A DNA stretch of 20,081 nucleotides from a virus. This document shows, one piece after another, positions 54-12,232 of the stretch. Made by a program: the position numbers and the translations under genes. Below the pieces are notes generated by a model. It ran no database searches and was not told where the DNA came from. It saw only the letters and a program-made list of their open reading frames with translations. Position 1 is the first letter of the stretch. Every line of letters starts with the position of its first letter. Location: IMG/VR virus record IMGVR_UViG_3300025168_000915, positions 1-20,081 of that record; one strand, written 5' to 3'.

Positions 54-959
54 TTAAGACTGTCTTACGATATCAGCTCCAACTCCTGACTGAACTCCTG
101 CACTGTAACGAGCAACCATTCTCAAATTGTCAGAACCGTCTAACGTGCTCATATCCAATAGGTTAATACGTGTAGCATCACTTAAAAGGTCAGTTCCAAA
201 GAATAAGTTTGACTTCTCAGCAATGTTTACTTGGTTATCAATCATTCCAGGACAAACAGCAATTTTATAACCGTTATACATTGGAACGTAATCTCCATTC
301 ATGTTGTAAGCATTAACATATCCTAAAGCAGAAATTGCTTGGATATATAAAGCATAAGTCGTTGGACTCATGTAGATATGTAAATCTTCTTTTCTCATTA
401 CTGCTACTGGAATAGCTGCTACTGCAGTTCCTAAGTTAGCTATAATATTTGCTGCACTATAAGCTGCTGTTGCTGCTGATTGCACTACTGTTGCATCTTG
501 ACCTGGTAATAAAAGTCCTGCTGCTGAATTGAATCCTTCAAATTCTCCATTAGTAGCTGCTGTTCCAGTCCATATAGAAGTTTCAGTTGCGTTAGCTATG
601 ATTTCTCCCATGTAAGAGATAACGTAGTCCTCAAAAGATGCTGGAGGTGGTGCTCCTGCTCCTGCTCTCATTTGTAAAGCCTCCCAAGAAGAAAGTAAAG
701 TTTTCTTACACAAATCTAAGTTGATTTGTAGGTTTTTAGGCTCTAAGACCTTTTCAGTAAGGGCTAACGTACCGTGGTCTGTATAGTCGCATGTAGCGTT
801 TCTAACGACGTCTGAGCCTGCCATACGTTGTATGTTACTTTTAAATTTGATGTTTTCAATCATTGTTAAGTATTCCAATGAAGTTGCTTGCTTGAGTGCT
901 GCCGATATGTAGAATCCAGCTGCTTTGCCCGCGAACGAGCTAGTTACATTAAATGCCAT
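54..959 (-). CDS. Major capsid protein (probable)
   Basis: A 301-residue protein with no membrane segment or signal peptide, rich in Ala, Asn and Thr, as expected for a shell protein. The call rests mainly on position: it directly follows an acidic scaffold-like gene and a prohead protease, the usual protease-scaffold-capsid order. Its overall character also resembles short major capsid proteins of Bacteroidota phages. The N-terminal ~50 residues are mixed hydrophobic and polar, followed by a helical stretch that ends in an Ala/Gly/Pro-rich loop near residues 98-107. A 6-bp hairpin lies just upstream of the start and a strong hairpin follows the stop, fitting high expression. I see no diagnostic single motif, so HK97 fold membership is inferred. 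Confidence 0.75.
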   Translation of the reverse strand: MAFNVTSSFAGKAAGFYISAALKQATSLEYLTMIENIKFKSNIQRMAGSDVVRNATCDYTDHGTLALTEKVLEPKNLQINLDLCKKTLLSSWEALQMRAGAGAPPPASFEDYVISYMGEIIANATETSIWTGTAATNGEFEGFNSAAGLLLPGQDATVVQSAATAAYSAANIIANLGTAVAAIPVAVMRKEDLHIYMSPTTYALYIQAISALGYVNAYNMNGDYVPMYNGYKIAVCPGMIDNQVNIAEKSNLFFGTDLLSDATRINLLDMSTLDGSDNLRMVARYSAGVQSGVGADIVRQS

Positions 960-984
960 AATTTGTTGATTTTTAGTTAGTTAT

Positions 985-1000
985 GTAGAGTTATCTCTAC
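985..1000 (-). promoter_or_regulatory. Perfect 6-bp hairpin upstream of the capsid gene
   Basis: GTAGAG at 985-990 is the exact inverted complement of CTCTAC at 995-1000, with a 4-base loop. It sits in the 52-base gap between the scaffold-like gene and the capsid start at 959. The element CTAAAAATCAA follows it (about 965-976), close to the ATG. The hairpin may protect or define the 5' end of a capsid mRNA, or separate the two messages. There is no U-run, so it is not a normal terminator. Confidence 0.35.
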
Positions 1001-1011
1001 TTATTATTTAT

Positions 1012-1686
1012 TTATTTGTTTAAGTCGTGTAAGAATTTATCTCTGCTAGACATTTTTCTATAATCTGTTTTACTTACAGTTGGTCTATCTGAACTAAATT
1101 TATTTGTATCTAAAGGAGCTGATGAAGGTAATTCTCCTAGCTCAGTTTTCAGCTTTTCGTTTTCAGCTTTTAACTTTTTTAATTCATCTTCTGCTGAAAA
1201 TTCAATTACTTCTTTTGTAGTAATAGTTTTAGGATTTGTAGAAGGCTCTTCAGTTTCTACAGACATTTCTTCTACCTCGTCATCTCCACCCACTTTAGCT
1301 TCTTTAAGTTTAGCTACAGCATCTTCTAAGTTTTGGATTCTTTTCTCCATACCTTCCCAGTCTGCTACATCAGCATACTTTTTTTCTTCTTCTTCTTCAG
1401 CTAATTCTTCTTCTACTACTTCTTCAGTTTCAGTTTCCATAACCTCAGCTACGATACCTTCTTCTTCAACTCTAAAAGTAACTCCTGTATCAGTCTTGTA
1501 AGTTCCAACAGGTAATAAGATAGTAGTGCCATCTTCTGTAAGAACACTTATATCGACACCCTCAGCTAATTCGTCTGCTGTTGAAACGAAAATAGTTCCG
1601 TCCTCTGATTTAGCTTGATAAGCTAATTTAACATCTTCGCCTTTATCAAGACCAAGTGCTACTAATATTTGCTTTTTTAAATCCAT
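1012..1686 (-). CDS. Acidic coiled-coil protein, probable capsid scaffold
   Basis: A 224-residue, highly acidic protein. Residues ~45-85 look beta-rich (a small Gly-containing domain). A Glu-dominated stretch follows at ~85-103, then predicted coiled-coil segments near 110-130 and 165-187, and a charged C-terminus. Its place between the XkdF-like protease and the capsid gene, its acidity and its coiled coils are what is expected of a scaffolding protein that the protease removes during head maturation. No catalytic motif is seen. A copy of the 12-base late box lies 20 bases upstream of the ATG (1707-1718), suggesting its own promoter. It could instead be a head decoration or minor structural protein. 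Confidence 0.55.
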   Translation of the reverse strand: MDLKKQILVALGLDKGEDVKLAYQAKSEDGTIFVSTADELAEGVDISVLTEDGTTILLPVGTYKTDTGVTFRVEEEGIVAEVMETETEEVVEEELAEEEEEKKYADVADWEGMEKRIQNLEDAVAKLKEAKVGGDDEVEEMSVETEEPSTNPKTITTKEVIEFSAEDELKKLKAENEKLKTELGELPSSAPLDTNKFSSDRPTVSKTDYRKMSSRDKFLHDLNK

Positions 1687-1706
1687 AGTTTTGTTTTAAG
1701 TTCTGT

Positions 1707-1718
1707 TATATAATAGAA
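1707..1718 (-). promoter_or_regulatory. Late box copy 1 (TTCTATTATATA), before scaffold
   Basis: Exact 12-base word found four times in the window, here 20 bases upstream of the scaffold start. The partner word CTAAAATCAA lies at 1734-1743, exactly 15 bases upstream of the box on the coding strand. If TATTAT inside the box is a -10 element, the partner ends 18 bases before it, like a -35 element. A leader of about 15-18 bases would result. The repeat is seen; the promoter role is inferred. Confidence 0.5.
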
Positions 1719-1739
1719 TAGTTATTGTTCTGTTTGATT

Positions 1740-2981
1740 TTAGTAGTCAAAATTTACATTAGGGAATGCATCTCTTGGAATGTTTTGGAATGCTTTTAGA
1801 GTTGTTTCATACTTGCCTAAAGGTATATCTACGTCTAAAGCCTTTGCCGCTTGTTGAACTGCTTTAAGAGCATTTTCTAATTTATCAGAAATACTTTCGC
1901 CTTTACCATAAACTGACATAAATTTATCTTCTTGTTTAAATACTGCTTCTGCTGATTTTTCTCTTGAGTTGTAAGTTTTAGTTTGTGCAGCAGCAAGTTT
2001 TTCATAAACTTTTTCCACTTGAACTAATTCCATTTTTGCATCTCTTATTTTACCTTCTTCAGCAACAACTTTATCTAAAGCTTTATCCAATTTTTCTTCT
2101 GCGTCTTTATTTTTTACATCTTTTTCATCATACGCTCCAACTGCTTTTCTAACTGCTTCTTCAGACTTACTCAAATCAGATAAAATCTTTTCCATTTGAG
2201 CTTCTAAAGATTTTACAGTTTTCATATCTTTAAAATCCATTCTTTTAGCTTTACTCATTGTAGTAATTTTTCCTTCCCTTACTAATTCATTAAAAGCACT
2301 TAGTATTTCTGCTGTTGTTGGTTCTTTTGTTTTATTCATTTGTTCAAATTTATTAGTAAAGTAGCCTTCTATTGAAAGACCTTTAAGTTCTCCTGCTTTT
2401 ATCTTTTGCCAAAGCTCATCATTCTCAATCTTCATTTTAACGAACCAAGTGCCGTTAGGTAAGTCGTAGCCGTATAACTTTGACTTATCACTATCTCCTT
2501 CCTTAATCCAAGATTCAACTGTTAAAACGCCTGATACTCTGTCTTGGTGTTGATACGTTGCCTTGTGATGATTGTTATGTTTTAGGTAAAGTTCAGCAGC
2601 CTTTCTTACTGTTTCTTTAGAAAAGTAAACATAGTAATCAGAGTCAGTATTAGCGTCGTGTCTAAAGATTTGCTTGTTAGGAATTAAAGCAGGACTTATA
2701 AGCATTCTCTTTTCTTCATCTACTTTAGCAAAGGTTAAGTTGTTCTTTTCTTTTTTGAAAAAAACGAACTCAGATTCTATCGCAGGTGAGGTAACGAGCG
2801 ATATAGCGTCAATTGCCAACTCTTGATTATCGTCTTGTATTATTAGTTCTACTATTTTAGTTTCTTTCATATCTTCATAATAGTCTTTGTTATCTTCTTC
2901 ACATTCAGCTTTTGTATCGTATTTACAAGAGCCAGTCTTTCCCCATTTATATTTTCCGTTTTCACATTTTTCGCAAGGCAT
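1740..2981 (-). CDS. XkdF-like prohead protease with C-terminal coiled coil
   Basis: A 413-residue, three-part protein. Residues 1-38 form a Cys-rich tip (C3, C6, C19, C27), perhaps metal-binding. Residues ~42-215 match the XkdF-like phage protease pattern: an acidic strand ending in SLVTSPAIE (61-69), RMLISPALIP (92-101), YYVYFSKETV (116-125), a His at 145, a Gly/Trp strand near 177-179, and GLSIEGYF (201-208) with Ser203. H145 and S203 are the likely catalytic His and Ser by analogy with prohead proteases. Residues ~215-400 are Lys/Glu-rich coiled coil, suggesting a fused scaffold part. The late box ends 2 bases before the ATG. Probable role: cleaving scaffold and capsid during head maturation. 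Confidence 0.75.
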   Translation of the reverse strand: MPCEKCENGKYKWGKTGSCKYDTKAECEEDNKDYYEDMKETKIVELIIQDDNQELAIDAISLVTSPAIESEFVFFKKEKNNLTFAKVDEEKRMLISPALIPNKQIFRHDANTDSDYYVYFSKETVRKAAELYLKHNNHHKATYQHQDRVSGVLTVESWIKEGDSDKSKLYGYDLPNGTWFVKMKIENDELWQKIKAGELKGLSIEGYFTNKFEQMNKTKEPTTAEILSAFNELVREGKITTMSKAKRMDFKDMKTVKSLEAQMEKILSDLSKSEEAVRKAVGAYDEKDVKNKDAEEKLDKALDKVVAEEGKIRDAKMELVQVEKVYEKLAAAQTKTYNSREKSAEAVFKQEDKFMSVYGKGESISDKLENALKAVQQAAKALDVDIPLGKYETTLKAFQNIPRDAFPNVNFDY

Positions 2982-2983
2982 AG

Positions 2984-2995
2984 TATATAATAGAA
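2984..2995 (-). promoter_or_regulatory. Late box copy 2 (TTCTATTATATA), before protease
   Basis: Exact copy, 2 bases upstream of the protease ATG. CTAAAATCAA lies at 3011-3020, again exactly 15 bases upstream of the box, as for copy 1. The distance from TATTAT to the A of ATG is 5 bases, so a transcript started at normal -10 spacing would be leaderless. Alternatively the box could be a translation-initiation element. Confidence 0.5.
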
Positions 2996-3016
2996 TTTAA
3001 GTTAGTTTATTTGATT

Positions 3017-4804
3017 TTAGATTGTAGCTCTACGTCTTATATTTGCTAATTGATTTTGACTGTTAGACATTTCATCCGTTAAGACAAACGCTTTAATAGG
3101 CTCAGGTGCTACTCCGCCTGATATATCAAAGTTTCCTGACATCATTTGGGGTGCAGGGGTACTCGGTACTGCTCCTCCGCCACCTCCTCCTTCACTTCCT
3201 CCAGCTGGACTTCCACTTAATATCTTTTGAATTTGTACTGCTGAAAAAGCCCCAGCTAGACCTGCTTGTATAAATGGATAAGCAGGCATTAGTGCAGTTA
3301 AAGGTGACTCCTGAGCTGTTGTAAATGCGTTTTGAACTCCCTGTACTCCTGATATAGTAGCCTGTGCTACTGCTGCTGTTTTTGCTAATGCTGTTCCCTC
3401 TCCTGCTATTGCTGATATTAATTGTAATCCTGATTGAGCCATTCCTACTTTAGCGTCTCTAACTGCTTTATCTAGTTCTTTTTCTTTGTCTGCTGCTTCT
3501 TTTTTTATTCTTAATTTTTCAGCTTCAAAATTAGCTGTAATACCTGTTATATCTTCTTCAGCTTTCCTAGCCATATCTACTTTAATATCATAAGCATTTT
3601 GTAGTTCTTCTAACTCTCTTTCAGTACCTGAAAGACTTTCTGCTCTTAAAGTTCTTTGTGTTTCTAATAGCTCTTTTTCTAGTCCTACTGCGTTTGTCTT
3701 TTGCTCTGATAACTGACCTGTTATAGTTTCTTCAAGTTCAAGCTGTAAATTTTGAGCTTCCATTAAAGCTAACCTATTTTCATCATTATCTATACTGGCT
3801 ACTGCTAATTGAGCTGCTCTAATTTGTTTATCTATTTGTGCAGACTGAAGTTTCTGCTGTTCTTCTAATGATATTTTTAACTCTTTATTAGCTTTTATCC
3901 TTGCTGCAAATGTTTCATTTTCATCATCTCTTATTTGCCTAAGTAATTCTGCTTCTTTTAATTTTTCTGCATTTAATTTTTTAAATGTAACATCAGCAAA
4001 CAACGCATCTTTAACTGCTTTTGTGGTTGCTTTGGCTTGTTCAAAATTAGCTGATACAGATATTTCAGATAACTGTCCTGATGCTCTAGTATAAACTTCT
4101 GTAACTTCATCTATAGCAGCTCCGAAATTATCTACAATCGCTAGTCCAGCATCCTTAACTCCATTAAGAGTGTCTGCCATTTCAGATTTAGTTTCTTTCA
4201 TATCCTCCTTTATTCTTTCAACTTCTTTGGCAGCTTTAGATGTCTCATTCAAGTCTACTAACTCCCCATCTTTACCTATTGTAAAGGCTAAAGGATTCTT
4301 TCCTATTGCATCCTTAACTTCATAATAAGCTAATATTATAGCCTGCATACTTAACTTTAAAGCATCAAAAGCTAGAGAAAGTGGAGCAAGTGCTATAGTC
4401 TTTAAATTATCTAAAACTGTACCAAAAGCACTAAAATTCTTAGAGCCTTGCGTAACATAATAAAAAGTATCTATAAGAATATTTACTAACTGATTAAATG
4501 TAGTAGAAATAGTAGTAGTAACATTAGAGATAGTGTCCATAACTTTCTGATTTTTAGACATTGCTTCTTTAAGTGCTGTAAATGCTCCTGCTACAATAGT
4601 AATAATACCTAAACCACCTAATACTGTACCAACTCCTTTTAATGCTCTTCCAAAAATCCCTACACCTTTTGAGGCTGATTTTCCTGATTCACCAATAGAC
4701 ATATTTGCTTTAGATAGTTTCTCTGTAGCCGTAGTAGCCTTATTCACGTCTTTAGTTACTGCTCCAATATTAGACTTAACTTCTATTTCTAAAATCTCTG
4801 CCAT
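3017..4804 (-). CDS. Tail tape measure protein
   Basis: A 595-residue protein with long heptad-like helices over most of its length. A hydrophobic, Gly-rich segment lies at about residues 55-82, and long charged helices fill ~255-450. The C-terminal region (~455-535) is Ala/Gly-rich, with an alternating hydrophobic pattern ending in GAFSAVQIQKIL, followed by a poly-Gly/Pro linker. This alternating C-terminal segment is typical of siphovirus tape measures. At roughly 0.15 nm per residue (established rule of thumb), it would set a tail near 90 nm, at the short end. It is transcribed after the tail-tip and fibre genes and just before the head genes, an uncommon position. No peptidase domain is seen. 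Confidence 0.75.
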   Translation of the reverse strand: MAEILEIEVKSNIGAVTKDVNKATTATEKLSKANMSIGESGKSASKGVGIFGRALKGVGTVLGGLGIITIVAGAFTALKEAMSKNQKVMDTISNVTTTISTTFNQLVNILIDTFYYVTQGSKNFSAFGTVLDNLKTIALAPLSLAFDALKLSMQAIILAYYEVKDAIGKNPLAFTIGKDGELVDLNETSKAAKEVERIKEDMKETKSEMADTLNGVKDAGLAIVDNFGAAIDEVTEVYTRASGQLSEISVSANFEQAKATTKAVKDALFADVTFKKLNAEKLKEAELLRQIRDDENETFAARIKANKELKISLEEQQKLQSAQIDKQIRAAQLAVASIDNDENRLALMEAQNLQLELEETITGQLSEQKTNAVGLEKELLETQRTLRAESLSGTERELEELQNAYDIKVDMARKAEEDITGITANFEAEKLRIKKEAADKEKELDKAVRDAKVGMAQSGLQLISAIAGEGTALAKTAAVAQATISGVQGVQNAFTTAQESPLTALMPAYPFIQAGLAGAFSAVQIQKILSGSPAGGSEGGGGGGAVPSTPAPQMMSGNFDISGGVAPEPIKAFVLTDEMSNSQNQLANIRRRATI

Positions 4805-10901: not shown

Positions 10902-11467
10902 TAATAACCAGCACCCTTAGTAGATACAGGAATATCACACGTCTGAAAGTCATTCTGTACTAGAACTCCTATATTAAAAACCCATCCAGTTAATAAGTTA
11001 TCGAACCTCTCAGAAAATGGCTCTATATTAAATTGGTCTTGCGTAAAGTATATCGGTTCGTTAATATCATTAACACCTAGTAAAGATTGTCTTGAACTGT
11101 GCCTCAACATTCCTATAAAATCTGTAACTATTTGTAAGCTTTCATTAAGTACATCTTGCTCATTACTAAGTGTTTTGTATAACTTAGTAAACTCATCCGT
11201 AAGAGTATTTAATATTTCACTTCTATTTGTAGTCCAGTTTTCTCTCTCTGTTACTTGACTCATTATAAAGATTTGGAAATTGTAGGTTAATTGACTATCT
11301 CCAGTACTTACGCTTGTAGGGTTAATATGCAGTAAAGGAAACTTAGTTACTTTAGATAAATCAATATCAAATATATCTCCTACAGAAGTTGTATGTATTT
11401 GCCTATGATGCTCAGCTAATCTAAGCAAAGTATTTACAACATTATTGTACGTCTTATTATTAACCAT
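10901..11467 (-). CDS. Probable tail terminator / completion protein
   Basis: A 188-residue protein without membrane segments. A helical N-terminus (residues 5-20) is followed by FPLLHINPTSV (about 43-53), a beta segment LTYNFQIFIMSQ, and then a long helix bearing ILNTLTDEFTKLYKTL. Near the C-terminus, GWVFNIGVLVQNDFQTCDIP resembles the end of tail-terminator-type proteins in Bacteroidota phages. The strand-helix-strand layout and size fit gpU-like terminators. It starts inside the end of the frameshift chaperone ORF (8-base overlap). The assignment is an inference from pattern and neighbours. Confidence 0.4.
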   Translation of the reverse strand: MVNNKTYNNVVNTLLRLAEHHRQIHTTSVGDIFDIDLSKVTKFPLLHINPTSVSTGDSQLTYNFQIFIMSQVTERENWTTNRSEILNTLTDEFTKLYKTLSNEQDVLNESLQIVTDFIGMLRHSSRQSLLGVNDINEPIYFTQDQFNIEPFSERFDNLLTGWVFNIGVLVQNDFQTCDIPVSTKGAGY

Positions 11468-11690
11468 TTCTTTTTACTTTATTTTGTGAGCTTAAATCTG
11501 TTTCATAACTTAGCCAAGTCAGACATTCTAATAGGCTCAGTTTTGTTATTCGCTCTAAGTTTACTATTTTTTCATTACATAGACGGTGCATAACTCCAAA
11601 CCATCCCCATTTATTTGCCATATTTTCAGTAGCTACTGCATCTTCATTACCTTCTGCTTGTCTATCAAAAATGATTGCAAAATTCTCCAC
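11460..11690 (-). CDS. Tail assembly chaperone, -1 frame extension (GT-like)
   Basis: A 76-codon frame with only a GTG as a possible start at 11690. It overlaps the end of the upstream chaperone gene by 58 bases in the -1 frame and stays open upstream through the T9 tract. The region WGWFGVMHRLCNEKIV...LLECLTWLSYETD looks like the C-terminal 'T' part of gpGT-type chaperones, with a Trp near the start and an L-x-x-L-x-Y end. Independent translation is unlikely. If made by -1 slippage at 11711-11717, the product is a 257-residue fusion: 174 residues of the first frame plus 83 of this one. Its probable role is to link the chaperone to the tape measure during tail assembly. Confidence 0.65.
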   Translation of the reverse strand: MENFAIIFDRQAEGNEDAVATENMANKWGWFGVMHRLCNEKIVNLERITKLSLLECLTWLSYETDLSSQNKVKRNG

Positions 11691-12232
11691 AATTCCTTTC
11701 CGAAAGTGTAAAAAAAAACTAATGCACTTTGCACTTGTACTGTAGACATCTTTTTCATTTCTTCAGTCCGCATTGTTATATCACCATCATAAGAATCAAT
11801 AATATAAATATCATTCTTTTTTTCTTTTATCGGTCGATAGAGTACTGCCATTAATTCTGGAAGATTTGTATATATACCGTCTTTAATAAACTGCTCTATG
11901 TCTGCATACTCACCAAGAGTAATTTTTTCTAAATCAGGATGAAAACCATACTTTACTCCATTAATCTCTATCAGTCTTTTAAGCTTTGTATCACTATCAG
12001 CTTGCATTTGGCTAATCTTACTCATAATACTAACTACATCTGATAAAGCTAATTCTTTTATTAAGGTCTTAGGAATGTTTGTAAGCTCTGCTATTGTTTC
12101 AGTAGCATTTTCAGTCTTAGTACCTTTTTCAAATTCAATAAGTTTAATATAAGATTCTAATGTAACATCTGCCCAACTATTGATTAGCTTAAACTCTTTT
12201 ACTTTGCCTTCTTTTTTAATTTTAACTTTCAT
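11633..12232 (-). CDS. Tail assembly chaperone (G-like), first frame
   Basis: A 199-residue protein without signal or membrane segments. The N-terminal ~35 residues form strands plus SWADVTLESYIKLIEF. The centre carries YGFHPDLEKITLGEYADIEQFI, and later NLPELMAVLYRPI. This pattern is common in small pre-tape-measure proteins of Bacteroidota phages, some of which are annotated as T4-type base plate proteins. The frame ends shortly after a T9 tract. Its overlap with a -1 frame ORF matches the classic G/GT chaperone arrangement. It follows TerL with a 32-base gap containing the late box 4 bases before its ATG. Role: tail assembly, inferred. Confidence 0.6.
   Translation of the reverse strand: MKVKIKKEGKVKEFKLINSWADVTLESYIKLIEFEKGTKTENATETIAELTNIPKTLIKELALSDVVSIMSKISQMQADSDTKLKRLIEINGVKYGFHPDLEKITLGEYADIEQFIKDGIYTNLPELMAVLYRPIKEKKNDIYIIDSYDGDITMRTEEMKKMSTVQVQSALVFFYTFGKELWRILQSFLIDKQKVMKMQ
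11710..11718 (-). promoter_or_regulatory. T9 slippery tract, candidate programmed -1 frameshift site
   Basis: On the coding strand the chaperone frame reads GTT TTT TTT TAC here, so T TTT TTT (11711-11717) is a valid X XXY YYZ heptamer. A -1 slip gives L-H-F-R-K-G-I, leading directly into the second ORF without a stop. That frame is open from about 11764 down to 11460. A stimulatory downstream RNA structure was not identified. Transcriptional slippage on the nine-base run is an alternative. Confidence 0.6.

Follow-up and report, generated by a model that had tools for sequence, protein, structure and literature searches.

A run of nine to ten T at the frame junction of a probable phage tail assembly chaperone gene: a candidate case of transcriptional slippage

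Introduction

How are two overlapping reading frames, the second of them almost devoid of start codons near the junction, turned into protein in a phage genome? The question is raised by a locus in the 20,081-base stretch of DNA analysed here (the window), which represents the entire IMG/VR record and probably comes from a longer phage genome. In phages lambda and P2, the G/GT type of frameshift in tail assembly chaperone genes has been described as ribosomal (PMC5009743). An earlier note, made from the letters of the window, had proposed the same for this locus, namely a programmed -1 slip of the ribosome on a T heptamer joining two frames of a tail chaperone. The T9 tract (GTT TTT TTT TAC), the heptamer and the length of the fusion had been placed correctly, and the features of the locus are as follows:

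11633..12232, minus strand: frame-0 ORF of 199 aa, probable short form (gpG-like) of a tail assembly chaperone (confident AlphaFold model, fold matches)
11710..11718, minus strand: T9 run, candidate slippage site, reading GTT TTT TTT TAC (sequence; run length 9 or 10 for 333 of 334 unique relatives)
11711..11717, minus strand: in-phase heptamer T_TTT_TTT within the T9 run, the slip site of the rival ribosomal reading (sequence)
11460..11711, minus strand: -1 frame, 83 codons plus stop, putative C-terminal fusion domain with a conserved Trp and a helical model
11460..12232, minus strand: coding region of the predicted 257-residue frameshift fusion (gpGT-like)
11633..11709, minus strand: stretch coding in both frames, between the run and the frame-0 stop (constraint on each frame in the diversity by codon position)

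The -1 frame is open through the T9 run and stops at 11460, so that 174 codons of frame 0 and 83 codons of frame -1 add up to the 257 residues of the fusion. The run is the only one of nine T on either strand of the window.

Materials and methods

Loci were gathered by protein-based searches of viral contigs and genome contigs, which yielded more than 440 loci plus isolates, the latter being the cultured Nonlabens phages P12024S and P12024L; tblastn returned no further isolates. Frame statistics were computed on 324 complete loci, with relatives reaching down to ~23% identity, and run lengths were counted in 334 unique sequences. A diverse subset of 108 loci was chosen at <80% identity, gaps not being counted. 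Some of the patterns used for gathering the loci contained the F-F motif; amino-acid patterns of this kind are blind to synonymous codons. An additional codon-neutral scan of the whole of IMG/VR for F-F-Y-H-L-G-N-D allowed TTC at either Phe. The tree used for changes at codon 4 of the site was computed with the slippage site itself left out.

Results

Conservation of the two-frame design

The alignment of homologues suggested by the earlier note revealed that the overlap is conserved in the 324 complete loci and the slip site in the 334 unique sequences. Beyond the run, the -1 frame stays open for 80-92 codons in the complete loci, and the frame-0 stop is found anywhere from 19 to 254 nt past the run. 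No ATG occurs within the first 25 codons of the -1 frame in 322 of these 324 loci; in the first loci collected (80 relatives and this record), ATG, GTG and TTG are all absent between the run and WFGV in 79 of 81. An in-frame fusion of both frames was found in none of the relatives. Within the own clade of the record, third-position diversity reaches its highest value (0.35) both in frame 0 before the run and in the -1 frame past the frame-0 stop, and within the overlap, diversity by codon position indicates constraint on each frame, stronger on the -1 frame.

The -1 frame also shows a codon periodicity of its own, and purifying selection acts on it, as the aligned sequences demonstrate. Its conservation begins at the run, with FR directly following, so that slip sites located further on, ahead of the frame-0 stop, were rejected. 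Since the -1 frame is open and periodic, is almost startless near the run and was nowhere seen fused in frame, it is close to certain, as judged from sequence, that the locus encodes a recoded fusion made from two frames and one start. Conservation strongly supports the claim of a programmed frameshift by which both frames of this probable tail chaperone are joined.

Length of the run and choice of codons

Counting of the run in the 334 unique sequences gave T9 in 278, T10 in 55 and T12 in one, with no run of eight or fewer. In the remaining coding sequence of the same contigs (1.15 Mb), 10 T runs of at least nine were counted, whereas 334 of 334 sequences have one here. The sole T12 relative (L339, CTT TTT TTT TTT TAC) is in phase with frame 0. 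The four codons of the site read V-F-F-Y, V-F-F-W, L-F-F-Y, I-F-F-Y or L-F-F-L (TTA/TTG) and, in further versions, L-F-F-F (TTC), F-F-F-V, F-F-F-L (CTN), F-F-F-A or S-F-F-F.

These versions obey a trade-off between the first and the fourth codon. In the 49 sequences whose codon 4 begins with a base other than T, codon 1 is invariably TTT; where codon 1 is GTT, CTT or ATT, codon 4 begins with T in 277 sequences and with another base in none (Fisher 1e-51, relatedness of the sequences ignored). Among the 108 diverse loci, 0 runs shorter than nine were observed versus 17.3 expected under codon independence, and 1 run longer than ten versus 7.5 expected. Synonymous codons change with the upstream codon as well: Leu at codon 4 is written TTA/TTG after CTT TTT TTT (30/30) and CTN after TTT TTT TTT (6/6), and for Phe at codon 4, TTC is used in 17 of 19 cases, the background being 33%. 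On the tree, the class of codon 4 changed at least 10 times, always along with codon 1 and with zero counterexamples. Well-supported branches provide 4 independent pairs for the rule and 0 against it (sign test, p = 0.125), so that the phylogeny-corrected test taken alone is not significant because just four pairs fall on supported branches.

The IMG/VR-wide motif scan recovered 63 genuine family members, all with TTT TTT within T9 or T10, and TTC at either Phe occurred in 0 of the 63. The other matches of the scan, L446 and L447 (with TTC) and L477 (with a short run), were discarded as chance peptides in unrelated ORFs. Overall, the sequences indicate that the conserved feature of the site is the run length of 9-10 rather than a 7-nt heptamer.

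Which machine slips at the run

Stretches of nine A or T are known to make bacterial RNA polymerase slip, and many genomes show selection against A/T runs from nine upward (PMC5009743, PMC1088944). At the frame change of the present gene there is such a homopolymer, apparently selected for a length of at least about nine. We therefore prefer transcriptional slippage: the run is as long as those on which the bacterial enzyme slips, and T runs of this length are rare elsewhere in these contigs. Slippage of the polymerase on the T9 run is, in our judgement, probably what makes the fusion, though well short of assured; it would explain why the run is kept at 9-10. According to this mechanism, the RNA-DNA hybrid of the polymerase would be filled by rU:dA across the run, the polymerase would slip and add one U in a share of the transcripts, and the ribosome would decode the U-inserted transcript normally, continuing in the -1 frame. 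One start would in this manner give two proteins, the 199-aa short form together with a minor product of 257 aa that carries the 83-residue -1 domain in place of the final 25 residues of the short form.

A programmed -1 ribosomal frameshift at T_TTT_TTT, with tRNA-Phe re-pairing one base back in both the P and the A site, appears less probable, though it is the main rival. It is compatible with the sequence because any T9 run includes an in-phase T_TTT_TTT, here the X_XXY_YYZ heptamer at 11711-11717, and the -1 direction and the type of gene agree with known ribosomal cases (PMC5009743), the P2 site being T_TTT_TTG. Insertion of one U and a -1 slip of the ribosome yield the identical protein (V-F-F-L-H-F), and part of the run length is explained by the conserved hydrophobic V/L/I-F-F-Y/W together with the heptamer. 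The heptamer needs just seven in-phase T's, however, and runs of 7 or 8 were never seen, nor did T_TTT_TTC or any alternative heptamer occur in the 334 unique sequences. A ribosomal shift also leaves unexplained the trade-off between codons 1 and 4 and the change of Leu and Phe synonyms with the upstream codon; codons 1 and 4 could be linked through amino-acid packing. A downstream stimulatory structure, which is common in ribosomal frameshifting but not obligatory, was not found. The folding of RNA downstream of the run, another check named in the earlier note, gave no excess of structure over shuffles in the 108 diverse loci (mean z -0.04, pseudoknot-free folding), and no excess was seen for an upstream hairpin either. 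The missing structure agrees with polymerase slippage but weighs little, as ribosomal shifting dispenses with a stimulator in some phages (PMC5009743). The ribosomal slip advanced in the earlier note is possible but fits less well to a conserved run length of 9-10, and no sign of a stimulator was seen. Polymerase slippage and a ribosomal shift may both operate at the run.

Two separate genes or an artefact of the run

It is very improbable that no frameshift takes place and the second frame is a separate gene, translated from GTG 11690, from an ATG further in or by ribosomes that reinitiate where frame 0 stops. The record does contain the GTG at 11690 and an in-frame ATG ~29 codons past the run, the latter correcting the earlier claim that the GTG was the only possible start, and the counterpart in P12024S is annotated as two genes, P12024S_38 and P12024S_39. 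Neither start codon is conserved among the relatives, however; the -1 frame is conserved right from the run, and its part keeps a constant 80-92 aa when the frame-0 stop moves between 19 and 254 nt past the run. An assembly indel, a decayed gene or DNA-level phase variation is the least probable explanation, for although homopolymers are mutable and error-prone, the phase is equal in the 334 unique sequences and in the cultured phage genomes, no in-frame fusion was found, both frames are under strong coding constraint, and the agreement of hundreds of independent contigs with P12024S and P12024L rules out the sequencing indel considered in the earlier note.

The layout of P12024S is identical to that of the record, with ATA CTT TTT TTT TAT at the site. 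In this phage (L082:12001-12674, JQ823122.1 23157-23830), P12024S_38 and P12024S_39 are a single gene in two frames that meet at a T9 run; the annotation lists both as hypothetical proteins and gives P12024S_39 an ATG absent from other loci. A flavobacterial host of the phage group is probable and is deduced solely from the Nonlabens phages. Two further loci (L159 and L160) lie on phage contigs in metagenome bins labelled Euryarchaeota and Pseudooceanicola; these labels provide no host evidence because the contigs are probably mis-binned.

Identity of the gene pair

The gene pair probably encodes a tail assembly chaperone, as suggested by weak profile matches and the two-frame arrangement. Like genes of the G/GT type, it possesses overlapping frames, a second frame that lacks a conserved start and a predicted fusion product. 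Matches to Phage_TAC_7 were obtained in 11 of 47 members (best 4e-4, under the gathering score in both members checked), to phrog_3140 (tail assembly chaperone) in 4 of 47 and to phrog_166 (tail protein) in 19 of 47, all three with modest E-values. The AlphaFold model of the frame-0 protein is confident (pLDDT 90). Its strong matches in the fold search were confined to unnamed phage proteins and P12024S, with one weak match to a named tail assembly chaperone (E 0.013), and no solved structure in the PDB resembled it by sequence or fold. A small module of helices is predicted for the -1 domain, in which Phe and Trp residues are conserved. The predicted chaperone encoded at 11633-12232 appears to be built of two similar units, each a beta hairpin followed by helices, and an internal duplication is possible.

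A weak structural match to gp10 of Flavobacterium phage 6H was followed up as a potential relative and set aside as uninformative, with T6 and broken frames; we infer from its length of 191 aa that gp10 is the structural match R9VW65. In 6H (L444:10040-10927, NC_021867), the C-terminal half of gp10 is apparently scattered over several frames, a 300-nt unannotated gap lies behind the gene, and sequencing indels are possible.

Terminase genes are located immediately upstream of the pair, which comes after terL. The tape-measure gene, just upstream of which a G/GT-type pair would be expected, lies at 3017-4804, ~6.6 kb downstream with six genes in between; the genes of the prohead protease and the head protein are also far downstream. 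The earlier placement ahead of the tail genes was right in that the pair lies between terL and those genes, and the pair does not adjoin the tape-measure gene. Given this position and family matches below threshold, the G/GT analogy is plausible but weaker than had been claimed. In the region 54-4804 the tape-measure gene precedes the protease and head protein genes, which is an unusual gene order. A portal gene was not identified anywhere in the 20,081-base record.

Discussion

Comparison with known systems

Lambda G/GT is among the closest known systems: a short form is accompanied by a -1 frame form whose extension is a small domain of its own, and a role in tail morphogenesis is likely here too. 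The -1 extension would probably act like the T of lambda GT, bringing the tube protein of the tail to a tape measure coated with the chaperone. The ribosome of lambda shifts at a site that is not a homopolymer (GGGAAAG), whereas the present gene carries a T9-T10 run and is distant from the tape-measure gene; in sequence, the frame-0 protein showed no recognisable resemblance to lambda gpG. P2 E/E+E' of the Phage_TAC_7 group is similar in reaching the -1 frame via a T-rich site, and weak Phage_TAC_7 matches were obtained here. P2 differs in having six T's (GGT TTT TTG) and a chaperone gene adjoining the tape-measure gene, and a direct link to P2 E was dropped after a profile comparison gave nothing. 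The run itself resembles those of Thermus dnaX, Shigella mxiE/spa13 and IS elements, in which A/T homopolymers, typically of nine or more, give access to another frame through slipped transcripts; those are cellular or IS genes, here a phage gene is concerned. The literature searched contained no phage tail case of transcriptional slippage.

Significance

We infer from sequence the chaperone role, the product ratio and the use of the polymerase instead of the ribosome. As a whole, we lean towards the view that polymerase slippage on a length-tuned T9-T10 run, in place of the ribosomal shift, gives rise to the tail chaperone extension in a large and widespread group of phages that are aquatic and probably flavobacterial. 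For frameshifts on which virus assembly depends, the G/GT ratio serves as the textbook example. If polymerase slippage is true, the trait under selection would be the ratio of the two products and not the ribosomal mechanism, and these phages would reach the same regulatory outcome as lambda-like and P2-like phages via a different machine. A conserved phage use would then join the short list of transcriptional slippage cases. For a widespread family currently annotated as two hypothetical proteins, the two-frame reading also provides the correct gene calls.
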